A model generated the notes under the pieces. It saw nothing but the letters and a program-made list of their open reading frames with translations. It searched no databases and had not been told where the DNA came from. From NCBI GenBank assembly GCA_027451605.1, contig DAIDJA010000108.1, positions 1 through 6,347 of the forward strand: 6,347 nt of DNA. The letters run 5' to 3'. Of the stretch, positions 1 through 6,347 are shown one piece after another. Positions within the stretch are counted from its first letter, which is position 1, and every line of letters begins with the position of its first letter. This DNA comes from Acidimicrobiales bacterium (lineage in GTDB: Bacteria; Actinomycetota; Acidimicrobiia; Acidimicrobiales; JABEUL01). The translations under genes and the position numbers were made by a program.

Positions 1-803
1 TTCGAAAGTTTGAATCCGGCCTGAGTTTGGAAGACGTAATAATCAAAGGAAGATATCCGAGAGTTTATGACAAAAATGTAAATAGCGGAAGCTTCTATAA
101 CTCGTATATACAAACCTATTTGGAAAGAGATGTACATTCGATAATTAATTTAAAAGTTATCAGATCTTTCGAGCGATTCCTATCAGTTATTGCAACCCGA
201 GTAGGGCAACTTATTAATTATGAATCAATTTCAAACAAATGGGAATTTCACCGATTACGGTAAAAAATTGGATTTCAGTACTAAAAGCGTCATTTGTAAT
301 ATTCGAGCTATCCCCTTGGCTCGAAAACGTTGGAAAGAGGTTGATTAAATCTACTAAATTGTATTTTTTACCCCGGGCTTGCCGCATTCTTAGTTGGGAT
401 AAGATCTTCAAACCATATTTTGAATCATCCTTTAAAAGGTAGTCTTTTTGAAAATATCGTCATCGCAGAAATCATTAAAGGAAGCAAAAATAGCGGTACA
501 TTTGAAAACTATCATTTTTATCGAGATTCTAAAGGACTCGAGATTGACCTTTTATATCAATCCGGAAATATAATAACTCCGATTGAAATCAAGTCTTCAA
601 TGACTTTCTCAAAGTTATTTGCCGACGGTATCAAAAAATTTAGAAATATATCTAATACTCCGGTAGGGAAAGGCATTATATTTTATAACGGAGAAGACAA
701 TTTGAATCACTCTGAAAACGCGGTTGTAAACCCCTTCAATCTATCTGAAATTAGTTTGTGGAATTTTATTAATTCAGTTAAAGACGAGAAGCCGGATTAT
801 TGA
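1..803 (+). pseudogene. DUF4143-family ATPase, 3' part, two frameshifts
   Basis: This is the C-terminal portion of a DUF4143-type AAA ATPase. The ATPase half would lie upstream of the window, so the 5' end is cut by the edge. Family landmarks occur in order but in different frames. 'YIQTYLERDV' (105-134) is in frame 3. 'GISPITVKNW', 'KRLIKSTKLYF' (about 242-367) is in frame 2. 'HPLKGSLFEN' (426-455), 'GLEIDLL' (534-554) and 'PIEIKSS' (579-599) are back in frame 3. The first break is a one-base loss near 236-238 (the expected run is N-Q-M-G-I-S). The second lies in a T-run near 364-371, where the family's Y-D before P/T-G-L-A is shortened. The last segment resembles the PD-(D/E)XK-like C-terminal domain of this family, with D and E-x-K residues visible. 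The biological role of these ATPases is poorly defined. The gene is probably inactive, although sequencing errors in homopolymers could mimic this. Confidence 0.85.
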
Positions 804-1115
804 GATTCGAGAATACCGCCGGTTTGTCTTTGATGCGGCACTGGGTATGGCAGGCCCGATGCTGGAGTACAAAAAGGTGAGAATCGGAACCGTGGTCCTC
901 AGGGCAGACCGCTGGTTCGCGTCCTCACAGATCCCACCGCGGCTACGGCTGTCGGCAACTAGCACCAACCAAGATGGCCAAGCAGCTCGTCTGCGCTGTC
1001 GGCACGGAGATGGTGGACCGTGACATCAACGCTGCTAAGAACCTCCGGGACTGGCCGGAGGCTAAATATGTCAGTTGCGCCTCAGTTGGAGCCGCGACCC
1101 CTGTGGATACTCGGG

Positions 1116-1131
1116 CCGGCCGAAAGGCCGG
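1116..1131 (+). repeat. GNRA-capped hairpin in tnpB tail
   Basis: A perfect six-base stem, CCGGCC / GGCCGG, closes a GAAA tetraloop. It lies in the 3' end of the tnpB remnant. In this family the 3' end of the gene overlaps the guide (omega) RNA and the right end of the element, so the hairpin may be a piece of that RNA. Its assignment to an RNA is inference. Confidence 0.6.
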
Positions 1132-1149
1132 TACAGACCCAGGCTCGGA

Positions 1150-1166
1150 CGCCGGATCATCCGGCG
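1150..1166 (+). repeat. Second GC-rich hairpin in tnpB tail
   Basis: CGCCGGA and TCCGGCG pair perfectly over seven bases with a three-base TCA loop, 18 bases after the GNRA-capped hairpin. It may be part of the same omega-RNA or right-end structure. It still lies in the open tnpB tail frame, so it could also simply reflect GC-rich coding. Confidence 0.5.
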
Positions 1167-1298
1167 CCGGAGGAGCTGCCATATGACCTTGCCATAAAGC
1201 GGGGCAGGCGGCGGTGAGGCCAGAATCGAACCGGAGGTCATCGCGCCGAAGGGGAGGAACCTCGAAAGCGGTGCCAGAGACATGGTCGCTAACGATCT

Positions 1299-1335
1299 GT
1301 CAAAAGCAACGGATAATCACCTGTTTACTTTTGAC
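1299..1335. repeat. Inverted repeat GTCAAAAG / CTTTTGAC
   Basis: Perfect eight-base arms at 1299-1306 and 1328-1335 are separated by 21 bases. They straddle the point where the GC-rich scar gives way to AT-rich DNA, so this may mark the right boundary or end hairpin of the transposon remnant. No function is shown. Confidence 0.45.
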
Positions 1336-1438
1336 CTCTCCCACCGAAGGTTTTAAGCTCAAATCTGATTGTAGAATCACCGTTATCTCCCGAAAGTAAG
1401 CCATTTGGCGGAGTAGGGGAGGGTGAATTGAAGTCTTG

Positions 1439-1457
1439 CGTCAAACATACGTCAAAC
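1439..1457. repeat. Tandem CGTCAAAC direct repeat
   Basis: CGTCAAAC occurs at 1439-1446 and again at 1450-1457, an 11-base period close to one helical turn. Such spacing suits a protein-binding site, but only two copies are present and no binding protein can be named. Confidence 0.4.
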
Positions 1458-1514
1458 GGGGAATAGGCAGATATTGATAAAATTGCAAAACTGAAATGTT
1501 TGTCCTTGAAGTAA

Positions 1515-1554
1515 TCTCCGTAGCGAGCTTTAACGAAGTGGTTTAATACGGAGA
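1515..1554. repeat. Inverted repeat TCTCCGTA / TACGGAGA
   Basis: Perfect eight-base arms at 1515-1522 and 1547-1554 enclose 24 bases. This could be an RNA stem-loop or a DNA protein site in the gene-free stretch before the HNH gene. Confidence 0.5.
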
Positions 1555-1619
1555 CAATTCAGGATCAGCTTTAGCTCAGTCAATGGTGGTAATCACTTTG
1601 CTCCCTGAGTACTTATTAG

Positions 1620-1678
1620 AACAAAAGCACGAATTAACATAATGGTGATAGTATATTGAAACGAACCGGGCTTTTGTT
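1620..1678. repeat. Inverted repeat AACAAAAGC / GCTTTTGTT
   Basis: Perfect nine-base arms at 1620-1628 and 1670-1678 enclose 41 bases. The right arm follows a short GC run (ccgggc) and is T-rich, which gives a weak terminator-like look, but the loop is too long for a typical intrinsic terminator. Confidence 0.5.
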
Positions 1679-1764
1679 TGGTGGTTGATGTCTTATTGCT
1701 TAAAACGCTATTGAATATTGACTCTGTATTTAAAATAACGAGACTCAAAAATTATTGGACCTGG

Positions 1765-1783
1765 TTCACCTATATTAAGTGAA
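1765..1783. promoter_or_regulatory. Operator-like repeat TTCAC-N9-GTGAA
   Basis: TTCAC (1765-1769) and GTGAA (1779-1783) form a small dyad centred 33 bases before the HNH start. A TATATT box (1771-1776) lies between the arms and could serve as a -10 element. No good -35 is present. The dyad could be where HNH expression is controlled; this is inference from position only. Confidence 0.3.
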
Positions 1784-1806
1784 GGAAATTTAATAACCAA
1801 ATTGCT

Positions 1807-2742
1807 ATGATGACTAGTCATGATGAGATTGTAAATGCTGCATTTAGTTGGTTAAATGAACATTTTAAAAAGGGTCAGACATTATTTAATCGTGATGAGT
1901 TGTTGGATTTTAGTTTCCAGGGTAAACGTCTGGGCCTAGTTGATCGTCAAAAAGGCATCCACGTAATTAGTGGATCTGGTTTCGCGATCAGCATAACTAC
2001 GACAAATGCCGGTAATTATAACGATAGATTTAATGACAGTGGTCAACTGCTATACCACTATCAAGGAACTGACCCAAATCTAAAATCAAACATAGCTCTA
2101 AAAAACAATTACAAAAAAAATATCCCGCTCATTTACTTTCGACAAATACAATCTGATCGTCGCTACGAATGCATTTATCCCGTCTTGGTCGTAAATGCTG
2201 ATGATCTTAAATGTGAGGTAACCATCGATTTATTTGATTATGGAATAAACACGAATGCAGAGTCTCAGATGGAAACTTTATCTAATGTGATGGCATTTGA
2301 AGAAAAGGAGCCATCGCTTATCGATAATAGAAGTTACTCTGAAAGCATTAGATTAAATCGAAATCATCAAGCCTTTTTCCGAAAAAGGGTGTTAACAGCG
2401 TATTCCAATAAGTGTTCAATCTGTAAGTTTGCCCATCCGGAGCTGCTTCAAGCTGGACATATAATACCGGATCGAGATTCAAAGGGAGTTGCCGAAGTTT
2501 ATAACGGTATCTCATTATGCTCGATTCACCATCTTGCCTTCGATCGTAATTTTATTGGGATTGACCCTAACTACGACATAAATGTGAATAAAAAATTATT
2601 AGATGAAATAGACGGGCCGATGTTGCAACACGGATTTAAGGATTTTCATCACAAGAAAATATTTTTACCGACTGAAGATGTACTTAAGCCAAATAAAGCA
2701 TTCTTAGAAAAGAGATTTGAAGAATTCAAAAGCGCATCTTAA
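1807..2742 (+). CDS. HNH-family putative restriction endonuclease
   Basis: This 311-residue protein ends in an HNH_2-type (beta-beta-alpha metal) nuclease domain, about residues 188-260. The likely catalytic residues are H218 in 'AGHIIPD', N233 in 'YNGISLC' and H242. C203/C206 with C238/H241 are the likely zinc ligands. The tail 'LLDEIDGPMLQHG' is characteristic of stand-alone proteins annotated as putative restriction endonucleases. The N-terminal half (about 50-150, with 'LLYHYQGTDPNLKSN' and 'IPLIYFRQI') is the conserved companion domain of that family. It may read modified DNA, as SRA-like domains do in ScoMcrA-type enzymes, but I cannot prove this by eye. The protein probably acts in the cytoplasm against foreign DNA. 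No methylase is nearby, so modification-dependent cleavage is plausible. Start: ATG 1807 or 1810, after an in-frame stop at 1780-1782. No well-placed Shine-Dalgarno is seen; an AAGGAAA lies too far upstream. The gene is complete and converges on int. Confidence 0.88.
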   Translation: MMTSHDEIVNAAFSWLNEHFKKGQTLFNRDELLDFSFQGKRLGLVDRQKGIHVISGSGFAISITTTNAGNYNDRFNDSGQLLYHYQGTDPNLKSNIALKNNYKKNIPLIYFRQIQSDRRYECIYPVLVVNADDLKCEVTIDLFDYGINTNAESQMETLSNVMAFEEKEPSLIDNRSYSESIRLNRNHQAFFRKRVLTAYSNKCSICKFAHPELLQAGHIIPDRDSKGVAEVYNGISLCSIHHLAFDRNFIGIDPNYDINVNKKLLDEIDGPMLQHGFKDFHHKKIFLPTEDVLKPNKAFLEKRFEEFKSAS

Positions 2743-2852
2743 TTGTTGATTCCGGTAAATTAAATCACCAATTTCTTAAATGACGCACGTTAATTTTGGA
2801 AAATTTCCAGACAGTTGTTTCCAAGATAAAGTCGCGATTTATCCGTAATTTC
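2743..2852. other. Convergent intergenic gap, candidate att region
   Basis: This AT-rich gap lies between the ends of the HNH gene and the integrase gene. In pSAM2-like actinobacterial elements the attachment site lies beside the 3' end of int, so one end of the integrated element may be here. No tRNA 3' end or strong intrinsic terminator is visible. The placement is inference from gene order. Confidence 0.3.
2796..2824. repeat. TTTCCA repeat cluster near int 3' end
   Basis: TGGAAA (2797-2802) and TTTCCA (2804-2809) form a near-continuous dyad with one central base. A second TTTCCAA follows at 2818-2824, 14 bases after the first in direct orientation and inverted to TTGGAAA at 2796-2802. Such short dyads resemble recombinase core-type sites, but no partner copy is available in the window. 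Confidence 0.4.
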
Positions 2853-4040
2853 TTAGACTACTGTGGAGTCAACTAAATTTGCAAATTTCGCAGCTGCATC
2901 GGCCTGCATTCCTGGAATTACATGGGCATATCGTTTCAATGTAAAAGCCGGGTTTTCATGTCCTAGTCTTTCGCTTACAACTTTAATTGGAATACCAGCC
3001 TTTAAGGCAACTGTGGCATGCGTATGTCGTAAATCATGAAGTCGAATAACTGGCAGATCGTACTTTTGTATTTCTTTTTCAAATGTTTTACTCAATTTGT
3101 CAGGATGAATTGGACCATCGTCAATTTGTCGGAACAGCAAGTCATTTTGGAGATAGCCAGACCCCCATTTTTCTTCCGCTTTTTCGAGTCCAATTAGGTG
3201 CTTTTTAATCATCGACAATGTTTCATCGTCGAGGTTAACTACTCTGGACCTGTGAGTCTTTGGTGTTGAAGATAGTATTATGTAATTAACCGAAACGATT
3301 GTGTGTTTAATGGATATCTGTTTTTGGGTAAAGTCAATGTCACCAATCCTTAGGCCCAGCACCTCACCCCGCCTCATCCCTGTCATGGCAAGTATTCTCC
3401 AAATTAATTCGTATTGAGAGCCTCTGACGCATTTAAGAAATGTTGCCAGGGAAGTTTCGTCCCAACACGCCATCTCTTTTTTGAACCTTTTGTTGACGCG
3501 CGGGGGCTTGGCCCGCTGTGCGACGTTAATGTTCAAAAGCCCTGCATCAATGGCATCTTCGAGAACTTTGTGAATTATTGCGTGGATGTATCGTACTGTA
3601 ATTATATCCAGTCCGCCAACAGGATCATGCCCACGCCGATTTCCATTCATATGAAGCTCTCCGTATAACTCGTTTAAAATTATCGGAGTCAGATTTTGAA
3701 GAGTAATATGGCCCAGTCGTGGCAATACATGTAATTTTAGATTACGAGTGTATGAATCCCACGTATTTTCTTTGAGTCGAAGTTTCGCTTGTGGCGCCCA
3801 AGTCTCCAATACCCATTCATTTAAGGTAATTTTAGATTTATAAAGATATTGTCCTTCAATTACTTGGCATGTTAATTTAGAACATGCCAGCTCAGCGTTT
3901 TTTCGACTTGAAAATCCACCGTGCCATTTCTGTTGTCTCTTGCCATCTATACTACGACCGACGTCGATTACTACATACCATTTAGTTGAAGATTTGCCGT
4001 TTTTGGCAATCCAAACCCGTTTTCTTATGTGTCCTTTCAT
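2853..4040 (-). CDS. int: Tyrosine recombinase (phage-type integrase)
   Basis: This is a site-specific recombinase that integrates and excises a mobile element. The 395-residue length is normal for the family. Residues 1-60 form a basic N-terminal arm-type binding region ('KWYVVIDVG', 'QKWHGGF'). Residues about 70-175 are the SAM-like core-binding domain. Residues about 190-380 are the catalytic domain. The full active set is visible: R223 ('TGMRRGEVLGLR'), K261 ('STPKTHRSR'), H335 and R338 ('LHDLRHTHAT'), H361 ('ERLGHE') and the nucleophile Y371 ('KRYAHV'). The style strongly resembles actinobacterial integrases. ATG at 4040 has AAGGAGA six bases before it. The gene starts 21 bases after the excisionase stop and must be co-transcribed with it. 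It appears intact and active, so the element may still be mobile. Confidence 0.95.
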   Translation of the reverse strand: MKGHIRKRVWIAKNGKSSTKWYVVIDVGRSIDGKRQQKWHGGFSSRKNAELACSKLTCQVIEGQYLYKSKITLNEWVLETWAPQAKLRLKENTWDSYTRNLKLHVLPRLGHITLQNLTPIILNELYGELHMNGNRRGHDPVGGLDIITVRYIHAIIHKVLEDAIDAGLLNINVAQRAKPPRVNKRFKKEMACWDETSLATFLKCVRGSQYELIWRILAMTGMRRGEVLGLRIGDIDFTQKQISIKHTIVSVNYIILSSTPKTHRSRVVNLDDETLSMIKKHLIGLEKAEEKWGSGYLQNDLLFRQIDDGPIHPDKLSKTFEKEIQKYDLPVIRLHDLRHTHATVALKAGIPIKVVSERLGHENPAFTLKRYAHVIPGMQADAAAKFANLVDSTVV

Positions 4041-4046
4041 AACTTT

Positions 4047-4053
4047 TCTCCTT
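4047..4053 (-). promoter_or_regulatory. Ribosome binding site of int
   Basis: AAGGAGA on the minus strand lies six bases before the int ATG and fixes that start. Confidence 0.85.
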
Positions 4054-4061
4054 ACGAATAT

Positions 4062-4280
4062 TTAAACAGAAACGCAGTCTGAATTTAACCATGCAAGAAG
4101 AGGGGTTACTGGGATTATTATCCGCTTACCGATTTTCCTATTTGGAATTTCGTTTCGCTTTATTGCATTATAAACGGATGATCTTCCGATATTGAGAACC
4201 TCAATAAGTTCATCAACTGAAATTGTAACTAGATTCTCGATATCTTTGAGAGTCAGTTCACGTGAATTATAATTATACAT
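4062..4280 (-). CDS. xis: Excisionase-like helix-turn-helix protein
   Basis: This 72-residue protein is of the MerR-like helix-turn-helix (HTH_17 / excisionase) kind. 'TISVDELIEVLNIGRSSVYNAIKRNEIPNRKIGKRIIIP' spans about residues 19-57, with the DNA-reading helix in 'IGRSSVYNAIKR' and the conserved 'IPNRKIGKRIIIP' wing; the C-terminal 'LLAWL' fits too. Such proteins bend DNA at the attachment site and steer the integrase toward excision. The start is ATG 4280 because a perfect AAGGAGGT lies six bases upstream; a longer reading from TTG at 4310 has no such site and would cover the ribosome site. It is the first gene of a two-gene operon with int, 21 bases apart. A transcriptional role, as a simple DNA-binding regulator, cannot be excluded. 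Confidence 0.85.
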   Translation of the reverse strand: MYNYNSRELTLKDIENLVTISVDELIEVLNIGRSSVYNAIKRNEIPNRKIGKRIIIPVTPLLAWLNSDCVSV

Positions 4281-4286
4281 GTCGTT

Positions 4287-4294
4287 ACCTCCTT
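4287..4294 (-). promoter_or_regulatory. Ribosome binding site of xis
   Basis: AAGGAGGT, a full match to the 16S anti-Shine-Dalgarno, lies six bases before ATG 4280. It decides the short start over the in-frame TTG at 4310. Confidence 0.88.
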
Positions 4295-4310
4295 CGTAGG
4301 TTTCGGCCAA

Positions 4311-4339
4311 GCCTCGGGATGTTGCTGCATCGCCGGGGC
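4311..4339 (-). promoter_or_regulatory. GC-rich hairpin in xis-int leader
   Basis: Read on the minus strand, GCCCCGG / CCGAGGC pair with one C-A mismatch. After one bulged C, GATG / CATC continue the stem around a CAGCAA loop. The whole is 29 bases. It would begin a few bases after the predicted transcript start and ends 16 bases before the xis ribosome site. No U-run follows, so it is not an intrinsic terminator. It may stabilise the leader, act as a control element, or be a DNA-level binding site. Confidence 0.5.
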
Positions 4340-4351
4340 AAACTATTAATG

Positions 4352-4379
4352 ATTATATTCTAACCCAATAGTGCTACAA
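4352..4379 (-). promoter_or_regulatory. Promoter of xis-int operon
   Basis: On the minus strand a perfect TATAAT (4357-4352) is preceded, with a 16-base spacer, by TTGTAG (4379-4374). Transcription would start near 4345, leaving a leader of about 65 bases before xis. The -10 is strong and the -35 weak. Confidence 0.55.
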
Positions 4380-4597
4380 AATCGAAAGTATATATGTAAT
4401 AAAAATAGAAAGCAGACAACAATAATTAAGGTCAGTAAATTAGATTTTTACTCTCAGTGGAGATATGGGCAATTTAGTGAGATTCATAGCACGTAAATTT
4501 TTAATTGGATCCTTTTATTTGAAGTCCAGATTGGCTGCAAACTTGAATGTTTGAATCATCGAAAATTAATTCGGAATCTGTATTAATCCTTAGGCTC
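4380..4597. other. Divergent intergenic region, no gene
   Basis: This AT-rich stretch between the two divergent transcripts has no supported gene. It holds two direct TTGAAT copies (4543-4548, 4551-4556) and a small dyad CGAA-N6-TTCG (4560-4573). Both lie upstream of the MazG-like gene's promoter, where a regulator could bind. Confidence 0.5.
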
Positions 4598-4606
4598 TGA
4601 TACAAT
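4598..4606 (+). promoter_or_regulatory. Extended -10 promoter of the MazG-like gene
   Basis: TG-A-TACAAT is an extended -10 element (TG at 4598-4599, hexamer 4601-4606). Seven bases separate it from the GTG at 4614, so the expected transcript start coincides with the start codon. No clear -35 is seen, as is common with extended -10 promoters. Confidence 0.5.
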
Positions 4607-4613
4607 TACATTT

Positions 4614-4988
4614 GTGAATTTAAGCAAAAAGACGGTTTATGATTTTCAAAATCAAATAAAAGACTTCTGTGATCAGCGTGATTGGAATCAATTTCATAAT
4701 CCGAAAGACCTATCAATCTCTCTAATGCTTGAGGCTTCAGAGTTACTTGAGTTATTTCAGTGGGGAAGTGATAGTGAGCTTTTGGAGAGTGATACAAATT
4801 TGAAGATTCAAGTTGCCGATGAATTGGCTGACATCTTTTACTGGGTGTTATTAATTTCCCAAAAATTTCAAGTCGACCTTTCAATGGCATTTGAGGACAA
4901 AATGGCTAAAAATAGCGCTAAATATCCTATAGACAAATCAAAAGGGAATCACCTTAAATATACCAAATTCAAAGATGAGTCAGACTGA
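4614..4988 (+). CDS. MazG-like nucleotide pyrophosphohydrolase
   Basis: This 124-residue all-alpha protein belongs to the MazG-like / RS21-C6 (DCTPP1) branch of NTP pyrophosphohydrolases. These enzymes cleave (d)NTPs to monophosphate and pyrophosphate with Mg2+. The metal site is complete: E40 and E43 in 'EASELLELFQW', E70 and D73 in 'ELADIFYW'. The family signature 'RDWNQFHNPKDLSIS' (22-36) and the end 'KMAKNSAKYP' are also present. The exact substrate (canonical dNTPs such as dCTP, or modified nucleotides) cannot be read from sequence. The start is GTG 4614, directly after an extended -10 box and without a Shine-Dalgarno, so the mRNA is probably leaderless. Its stop lies inside the next gene (14-base overlap), which indicates translational coupling to the GIY-YIG/DUF2075 protein and a shared task. 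It is divergent from xis. Confidence 0.9.
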   Translation: MNLSKKTVYDFQNQIKDFCDQRDWNQFHNPKDLSISLMLEASELLELFQWGSDSELLESDTNLKIQVADELADIFYWVLLISQKFQVDLSMAFEDKMAKNSAKYPIDKSKGNHLKYTKFKDESD

Positions 4989-6347
4989 AATTCGAACTTA
5001 TGAATTTAGCGAAAAAAGTGTCGAGTTGTTGGGTTCCGATAGTCGTGAAACAAACTGGCCAGTAGTTTATCAACTGTTTAATGATTCATTAATTTACGTT
5101 GGTGAAACCACCAACCTGAAAACTCGAATGAAGCAACATATTCAGAGTCCGAAAAAACAACCATTGTCCAGGATTTCTGTAATTTACGATGACACTTACA
5201 ACAAATCTGTTGCCCTTGATCTGGAATCACATCTCATTCAGTGGTTTGGCGGAGATGGCAAATATACAATGCTGAATCAAAATTGTGGCCTTGTTGACCG
5301 GGAGTATTATAATCGAAGCTTTTATTCAAAGCAATTCAGGGATGTTTGGAATCTACTGGTTAATCTGAAAATCGCCGATAAAACGATAGAGGAGATCGAA
5401 AATTCCGGGCTATTTAAGTTCTCTCCTTACAAAAAACTCAATGGAGAGCAAATTAGAGTAGTTAGCGAGGTAATGACCGAACTTAACACTTCGTTTATAA
5501 CCGGACAAAAATCGATTTCTGTTATAGAAGGCGATGAGGGGACAGGAAAATCAATAGTACTCATGTTTATGGCCAAGTTAATATGTGATATCCAGGAAAG
5601 TGATGTCCTTGATGATGAAGATGCTTCAGGAGACTATTTCGACAATTATTTTCGCAGCCCAATTATTGAGAATTTTAAAAATAAGACTGTTGCAATGGTT
5701 GTACCGAATCAGTCGCTTAAGGGTAGTATATCGAAAATTTTTAAAAGCATTAGCAATATGGACTCCGTGCAGTTATTATCTCCATTGGACTTTGGGTATA
5801 AAAACAAGAAGTATGATGTTACCTTCGTTGATGAAGCACACCTACTAAAGGTCAGTAATCAAGAGGTTCATAAAATCAACCGAGAAAAATTTGAAGATAT
5901 TAATAAAACACTTTTTAACGATAGCAAGAATCATAATCAGCTTGACTGGATAGTTAATAATAGTAAGAACGTAGTAATGGTATATGCAGATCAGCGAGTG
6001 CGCCAAAACAATATTTCCGCGAAGGATCTAAACATCTATAGTTATCGGAAGCATATTTTAAAATCACAGATGAGATCTGTCGGTGGTGAACTGTTTATTA
6101 ATTATCTACGATCCATTCTCAGTAATGATCCTCCGAGTCAAATGCAGGTATTTGACAAATTTGAATTTAAATTATATGAAGATTTTGAAGGGCTTGTGAA
6201 ATCCATAGAGGCCAAGGAAGTAAAATACGGACTTTCAAGGTTAGTCGCCGGGTTCGCCTGGGACTGGAAATCTAAGAAGAATAAAAATGACTTTGATATA
6301 TGTATAGACGGGATTAAACTTAGGTGGAATTCCACTTTGAGCGACTT
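4975..6347 (+). CDS. GIY-YIG nuclease fused to DUF2075 helicase (partial)
   Basis: The gene runs off the right edge after 457 codons; the family suggests roughly 600 or more residues in total. Residues about 29-105 are a GIY-YIG nuclease: 'VVY' (Y32) and 'YVG' (Y41) replace the textbook motifs, with R51 in 'LKTRMKQH', E84 in 'LDLESHLI' and N101 in 'MLNQN'. A linker with 'FKFSPYKKLN' leads into a DUF2075 (PF09848) superfamily-1-like ATPase. Its Walker A is 'EGDEGTGKS' (185-193; K192), its Walker B 'DVTFVDEAHLL' (281-291; D286, E287), then 'VYADQRVR' (336-343), the motif 'LKSQMR' (362-367) and 'YGLSRLVAGFAWDW' (418-431). The C-terminal helicase motifs lie beyond the window. It probably moves along or unwinds nucleic acid and cuts it. 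ATG 4975 overlaps the MazG-like gene by 14 bases and has little Shine-Dalgarno, consistent with coupled translation. Defence against phage is inference. Confidence 0.92.
   Translation, partial: MSQTEIRTYEFSEKSVELLGSDSRETNWPVVYQLFNDSLIYVGETTNLKTRMKQHIQSPKKQPLSRISVIYDDTYNKSVALDLESHLIQWFGGDGKYTMLNQNCGLVDREYYNRSFYSKQFRDVWNLLVNLKIADKTIEEIENSGLFKFSPYKKLNGEQIRVVSEVMTELNTSFITGQKSISVIEGDEGTGKSIVLMFMAKLICDIQESDVLDDEDASGDYFDNYFRSPIIENFKNKTVAMVVPNQSLKGSISKIFKSISNMDSVQLLSPLDFGYKNKKYDVTFVDEAHLLKVSNQEVHKINREKFEDINKTLFNDSKNHNQLDWIVNNSKNVVMVYADQRVRQNNISAKDLNIYSYRKHILKSQMRSVGGELFINYLRSILSNDPPSQMQVFDKFEFKLYEDFEGLVKSIEAKEVKYGLSRLVAGFAWDWKSKKNKNDFDICIDGIKLRWNSTLSD

Follow-up and report, generated by a model that had tools for sequence, protein, structure and literature searches.

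A conserved pair of genes for a DCTPP1-like pyrophosphohydrolase and a nuclease-helicase as a candidate two-part defence system

Gabija and Hachiman are, in the descriptions available, two-component defence systems that combine a nuclease with a helicase; neither includes a nucleotide pyrophosphohydrolase, and their nuclease folds differ from those considered here. Phage T4 combines a GIY-YIG enzyme, endonuclease II, which acts on cytosine DNA, with the dCTPase gp56, but these are phage-encoded, lie in separate genes, come without a helicase and are aimed at host DNA. Nhi of Staphylococcus epidermidis holds nuclease and helicase in one protein; in the accessible parts of the sources it is a single gene (PMC12904381) whose action depends on the phage SSB (PMC12904381, PMC10732053). 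CMoRE (PD-T4-3) also uses an N-terminal GIY-YIG nuclease against phage, and is described in the available part of PMC12923530 as a type IV restriction enzyme that cuts 5hmC DNA; it acts as one component, senses 5hmC through a C-terminal domain and has no helicase. A survey of BREX (PMC12839542) mentions, in the portion accessible, Schlafen RNases and neither MazG nor GIY-YIG.

The window analysed here is a whole contig of 6347 bases, and its features are listed in Table 1. The sequence-only reading had described two overlapping genes with intact catalytic motifs, beside an xis-int pair and near an HNH endonuclease gene. Open reading frame and Pfam analysis recovered all of these: both genes and their 14-base overlap, the xis-like and integrase genes, the HNH gene, and the residues E40, E43, E70 and D73 of the MazG-like protein and Y32, Y41, R51, E84, N101, N103, K192 and DE 286–287 of the nuclease-helicase. 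A search of the window against Rfam gave no match up to E 1. The helicase gene runs off the end of the contig, and its visible product compares with 566–588 aa in the relatives (120 listed, with a single exception of 519 aa), so that approximately 110–130 aa are missing. The closest relative, P0001, is 582 aa long with 70% identity and comes from a genome of the same genus, where these two genes share 20 bases.

Table 1. Features of the window
Feature	Positions	Strand	Basis
HNH endonuclease, possibly modification-dependent; neighbour of the pair	1807..2742	+	PF13391 E 4.9e-9; PADLOC HNH E 1e-23
Tyrosine integrase of the element likely carrying the pair	2853..4040	-	PF00589 E 4.7e-24
xis-like HTH_17 gene, divergent from the pair	4062..4310	-	PF12728 E 1.4e-10; TIGR01764 excise
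MazG-like (d)NTP pyrophosphohydrolase, all-alpha, DCTPP1 type; GTG start, 124 aa	4614..4988	+	PF12643; 6sqw match
GIY-YIG nuclease fused to SLFN-g3 (SF1) helicase; ATG start, 457 aa visible, 3' end missing	4975..6347	+	PF01541, PF09848
Overlap of 14 bases, start of the second gene inside the end of the first	4975..4988	+	Open reading frames
GIY-YIG domain, residues 31-92	5065..5250	+	Pfam stretch
SLFN-g3 helicase domain, residues 179-453, incomplete	5509..6333	+	Pfam stretch

The N-terminal domain of the second protein matches the Pfam GIY-YIG model above its curated cut-off (E 8.3e-8) and contains the catalytic Tyr, Arg, Glu and Asn of the superfamily. The remainder matches SLFN-g3_helicase, which we take to be the family formerly called DUF2075, at E 3.9e-25 (89.3 bits against a cut-off of 24), with K192 in Walker A and D286-E287 in Walker B (P0001 numbering for the latter pair). 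Across 43 helicases of the GIY-YIG type, Y32, Y41, R51, E84, K192, D286 and E287 are invariant, while 42 of the proteins retain N101 and 39 retain N103. An AlphaFold2 model of P0001 (pLDDT 86.8) resembles SF1 helicases; the Foldseek top ten consists of Upf1, Dna2, Sen1, human SLFN14 and RecD2, at low global TM-scores of 0.29–0.35. A profile search of the PDB with the nuclease-helicase alignment (A1) gave no significant match, the top entry being T4 endonuclease II (2wsh, E 0.11). From these family memberships, the GIY-YIG domain is predicted to cut DNA and the SF1 domain to unwind it. The window protein shows no recognisable domain for reading modified bases or for sensing, and the C-terminal part, where the single-component CMoRE carries its modification sensor, is here an SF1 helicase. 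The PADLOC Nhi model matches some relatives weakly over the helicase part, at E 2.3e-7 (P0031) and E 1.7e-10 (L027); it matched neither the window protein at 0.1 nor P0001 at 0.01.

The first gene is closest to DCTPP1. Its product matches PF12643 above the curated cut-off (E 5.5e-13), and its best match among solved structures is dCTP pyrophosphatase 1 (RS21-C6; 6sqw, E 8.6e-19); E. coli MazG is absent among the seven distinct solved-structure sequences matched at 0.01. The significant profile match is accompanied by the ExxE and ExxD metal-binding motifs of the MazG-like, DCTPP1-type proteins, whose residues E40, E43, E70 and D73 (window numbering) are invariant in all 49 partner proteins compared, irrespective of the type of helicase beside them. 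R22 and W24 are likewise invariant in the 49, W50 is present in 48 and H28 in 47. In DCTPP1 two tryptophans stack on the base, and the partner shares with that enzyme the motifs RDWxQFHxP, ExxELxExFQW, ExxD and KYP. DCTPP1 acts on dCTP and, in vitro, on C5-modified dNTPs, and is termed a house-cleaning enzyme in the accessible part of PMC7162842. The resemblance therefore points more closely to dCTP and 5-modified dCTP as likely substrates, and hydrolysis of dCTP is predicted for the partner from its family. DCTPP1 itself is free-standing in nucleotide metabolism, whereas the partner described here is linked to a nuclease-helicase.

To measure this linkage, one genome from each of 84,980 species was scanned by a pattern-based method using the A1 alignment and two short peptides. 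At least 37 loci encoding a GIY-YIG helicase were obtained, a lower bound because the scan relied on those two peptides. Twenty-one are from Saccharibacteria and 16 from other groups, including Actinobacteria, Bacillota, Clostridia, Bacteroidetes, Parcubacteria, Kaiserbacteria and Porticoccaceae. In 35 of the 37, the gene immediately upstream on the same strand is MazG-like, and the matched domains are spaced by -4 to 93 bases. The pair is thus kept well beyond close relatives and in several phyla, an outcome in favour of the sequence-only reading; the linked partner also separates it from the single-gene Nhi. The other two loci (L007 and L008) have no MazG, and no relative was found elsewhere in their genomes. 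The MazG profile gave no hits in 160,000 control bases (1913 open reading frames, all of at least 40 aa) and one in each of nine test loci. The distances among helicases track those among their MazG partners (r 0.73, with none of 5000 permutations as high), a figure that includes the kinship of the organisms and is based on the 25 pairs remaining of 43 once near-duplicates were removed.

The many long relatives, some of them in Saccharibacteria, suggested a core housekeeping gene. This was ruled out because in a sample of 195 genomes, covering the class of a Saccharibacteria genome, only 29 had a matching helicase; 25 of these had an adjacent MazG gene. Occurrence is patchy, at 17 of 296 genomes and 29 of 195.

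The nuclease domain is exchangeable between GIY-YIG and PD-(D/E)XK-like forms while the MazG gene often stays. In 246 genomes sampled from the window's own phylum, SLFN-g3 helicases occur at 27 places in 25 genomes. Seven are of the GIY-YIG type, all with an adjacent MazG gene (six upstream, one divergent). At 13 places a PD-(D/E)XK-like region replaces GIY-YIG at the N-terminus, an assignment made at motif level: 11 fit the pattern E..RxDxxxxG..ELKxW, two (L064 and L065) were placed by eye from their N-termini, and Pfam scans of four of these proteins matched no domain in that region. Five of these 13 have an adjacent MazG gene, downstream in four cases, and eight have none within approximately 1.5 kb. 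The type counts leave aside seven fragments or proteins with no A1-profile match (L075, L076, L079–L083). The Saccharibacteria class sample yielded 17 of the GIY-YIG type, 14 with MazG, and 12 of the PD type, 11 with MazG upstream; seven of the 17 GIY-YIG loci (L135–L141) repeat loci of the species scan, and the counts from the two surveys therefore overlap.

Each type of nuclease-helicase resembles a PADLOC candidate. PDC-S14 matches the GIY-YIG part of the window protein (E 4.8e-8), and PDC-S41 has its matches among the PD-type helicases (E 2.3e-18 at best). Going by the 'S' in their names, we read both as single-gene candidates, and they differ from the pair in that PADLOC has no model for the MazG-like partner, which matched none of its models at E 0.1. 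The literature searched, which held few subscription papers and no bioRxiv preprints, describes the pair in no title or opening of an abstract. To that extent no named system with this pair is known, in line with the sequence-only reading.

On plasmids the association is looser. Fourteen records matched, and after two near-copies were left out 12 regions were compared, of which only four (L111, L113, L117 and the archaeal L119) have an adjacent MazG gene. The nuclease-helicase can therefore work without MazG, at least there. Two plasmids, that of L090 and the record of L114, carry a MazG gene some 8–10 kb away. Beside the eight copies with no adjacent MazG lie, among others, genes whose annotations read restriction endonuclease (L091), DUF3578 (L090 and L114), vWA (L112) and type III-A CRISPR (L116). 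The pair was also considered as a phage gene set, and this was rejected: a scan of IMG/VR requiring exact short peptides found no relative, and although three phage records match, the one looked at, which does have the pair, is an unverified faecal scaffold.

The distribution of the partner bears on two alternative explanations. According to the first, the nuclease-helicase attacks DNA containing modified cytosine, and the partner keeps 5-modified dCTP out of host DNA, so protecting the host from its own enzyme. The position of the partner gene, first in order and overlapping, is consistent with this, as is the HNH gene in the window, which weakly resembles SRA and a phosphorothioate-DNA restriction enzyme (the latter at E 3.1e-19, with a score of 69 bits where the cut-off is 180). 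So are two precedents, each from the accessible part of its source: DCTPP1 hydrolyses C5-modified dCTP in a house-cleaning role (PMC7162842), and CMoRE shows a GIY-YIG enzyme cutting 5hmC DNA as an anti-phage system (PMC12923530). CMoRE, however, is a single component there and needs no such partner. Moreover, the nuclease-helicase contains no recognised domain for reading modified bases, PD-type nucleases keep the same MazG, and plasmid nuclease-helicases often do without it. We regard self-protection as unlikely, although it is the main rival to the reading preferred below, and the two other alternatives are less likely.

According to the second explanation, dNTPs hold the nuclease-helicase inactive and the dCTPase releases it by lowering them locally. 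Gabija, which is inhibited by nucleotides, provides a precedent, and overlapping genes would fit a complex of the two proteins. Against this, no nucleotide-binding regulatory site was recognised besides the ATPase, a hydrolase specific for dCTP would be poorly suited to gating by nucleotides in general, and relatives in Bacillota do without the partner. We rate this the least probable of the alternatives.

Surroundings in related genomes point to a mobile carrier. In genome G002 a conserved xis leader occurs at three places. One (C152) has the same pair, with a transposase, presumably IS110-like, between xis and MazG. At another (C217) the slot divergent from xis holds a UvrD helicase of 951 aa that ends in a PDDEXK nuclease, and the contig edge carries an Mrr restriction gene. 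The third (C205) has an integrase and no recognised nuclease-helicase. These places may represent related integrative elements whose defence cargo can be swapped. Relatives of the window share only short pieces of positions 1–4400, and no tRNA was found in L005, L120 or L001; neither the element ends nor an empty site could therefore be located.

To compare the genes around the pair with those elsewhere, we used 117 proteins flanking nine pairs from the window's own phylum (six of the GIY-YIG type and three of the PD type) and 112 proteins from eight control regions in eight of the same nine genomes, the ninth having no such stretch; gene calls in the G+C-rich genomes were crude. At a threshold of 1e-10, 190 PADLOC families were matched in the flanks and 9 in the control; these counts are of models rather than proteins, and a single Cas3e protein alone matches 23 families. 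When 20 flank proteins were scanned singly, four matched, near four of the nine pairs: Cas9 (L093), Cas3e (L098), Wadjet JetC (L101) and a type II restriction enzyme (L099). For 32 further loci, the 115 proteins encoded close by (a set with no matched control) matched 119 families, and the 25 of these that were listed include GajB, a DRT helicase, SoFic and several PADLOC candidates. Known defence genes are thus enriched around the pair relative to the control, as would be expected of an anti-phage system.

In one branch the nuclease-helicase carries an additional domain. Six helicases matching the A1 profile (L027, L029, L030, L031, L036 and L040) end in a Peptidase_S24 domain (E 1.6e-17 to 8.2e-24), and the Pfam GIY-YIG model is listed for four of them. 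All six share a Cys-Gly pair, the Ser of GDSM and the Lys of TIK, a set that we take to fit self-cleavage of the LexA/UmuD type. A model of an S24-bearing protein was too poor for use (pLDDT 61.2), and Pfam finds no Peptidase_S24 domain in P0001. As a LexA/UmuD-type domain is fused behind the helicase, RecA-coated single-stranded DNA is a likely trigger in this branch.

These fusions point to DNA damage, and raise the alternative that the pair is a DNA-repair or stress module, with no part in defence, that has been spread by mobile elements. Carriage on plasmids and near integrases agrees with such a module, as does the house-cleaning role given to DCTPP1 in the accessible text of PMC7162842. 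The patchy occurrence argues against it, as do defence neighbours far above control and the different helicase-nuclease that alternates in the same element slot of G002. We consider a repair or stress role improbable.

The reading that we prefer is that the conserved pair defends its host in two parts against phages and other mobile DNA, and would combine cutting and unwinding with removal of dCTP; we put its probability at slightly below one half. The nuclease-helicase would attack the replicating DNA of an invader by cutting and unwinding it; its dCTPase partner would remove dCTP or 5-modified dCTP and so keep the damaged DNA from being rebuilt. We infer that the invader may be a phage, that it would be the common target of both proteins, and that nucleotide removal would act as starvation. 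Outside the S24 branch the trigger may be phage SSB, as proposed for Nhi, this being one option. The domains, their intact residues, the gene overlap, the linkage in several phyla, the exchange of nucleases, the patchiness and the defence neighbours all support a two-part defence. Against it, a dCTPase that acted all the time would be costly to the host, and the enzyme has no known switch. In addition, eight of the 12 plasmid regions, eight of the 13 own-phylum PD-type places, L007 and L008 lack an adjacent MazG gene. The original proposal of a two-gene defence system therefore stands in part: a conserved pair, its defence neighbours, its patchy occurrence and its place on mobile elements speak for it, while the plasmid nuclease-helicases that occur without MazG do not fit a strict two-gene requirement.

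A wider version of the two-part defence can be offered only tentatively, as one that may well prove too broad. It would be a widespread modular form of immunity, in which a constant dCTP pyrophosphatase is combined with exchangeable nuclease-helicases of GIY-YIG or PD-(D/E)XK type, so that cutting is coupled to withdrawal of dCTP; in an SOS-responsive branch, a LexA-like self-cleaving tail would free the nuclease-helicase upon RecA filaments. Nuclease-helicase immunity has precedents, as has nucleotide depletion, and an overlapping pair of dCTPase and nuclease-helicase genes is undescribed in the literature searched and in PADLOC. Why a nuclease keeps a nucleotide hydrolase beside it is a question that can be tested with two small genes. 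If the two-part defence is correct, two strategies would be joined in one operon, and Saccharibacteria, which are very small and mostly uncultured bacteria, would possess a fairly common two-gene system.

A G+C-rich hairpin lies in the leader of the xis gene and is common to three sibling elements of genome G002. Its stem was altered on both sides between copies, GATG/CATC in one form vs GGTG/CACC in the other. When 20 genomes were searched with the hairpin pattern, five sites were found, and a reversed control pattern gave none. An Rfam scan of the window returned no match. The hairpin is a candidate structured leader or protein-binding dyad. In one of the sibling elements (L128, a region of contig C217 in G002), the slot divergent from xis is filled by a gene for a UvrD helicase with a PDDEXK nuclease (L128:5163-8018).

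Features of the window outside the MazG pair
Feature	Position	Strand	Remarks
Gene remains	3-803		two frames; ORFs 3-263 and 420-803
G+C-rich stretch	847-1186		
HNH gene	1807-2742		weak SAD_SRA similarity
Hairpin, xis leader	4311-4339	minus	also in loci L005, L128, L129

The gene remains in the left part of the window, presumably those of an ATPase of the DUF4143 kind, had a 66% DNA match in contig C228 of G002. The G+C-rich stretch beside them, which we take to resemble the 3′-terminal part of a transposon gene of the TnpB/OrfB type, had matches of 75–77% in the DNA of a further genome, G001. The HNH gene matched a phosphorothioate-DNA restriction model below the cut-off, and G002 holds a 40% relative of it that is interrupted by two stops.

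SLFN-g3 helicases were also observed in other arrangements. At six loci (L027, L029, L030, L031, L036 and L040) a C-terminal LexA/UmuD-like S24 domain is fused behind the GIY-YIG/SLFN-g3 helicase, with Cys-Gly, Ser and Lys conserved. Tandem SLFN-g3 helicases whose N-terminal region is PD-(D/E)XK-like at the motif level, instead of GIY-YIG, were present without MazG, two per genome, in two genomes of one genus (L064/L088 and L065/L089). At locus L147 the GIY-YIG-type helicase gene is broken by a stop codon, and no MazG neighbour was found in its surroundings.

On a Lactiplantibacillus plasmid, a NUDIX gene overlaps a gene for a PLD/DEAD helicase with DUF3427 (L113:1249-4546). These adjoin a MazG pair and form a second nucleotide hydrolase/nuclease-helicase pair there. 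The combination of a nucleotide hydrolase with a helicase may be a recurring theme.
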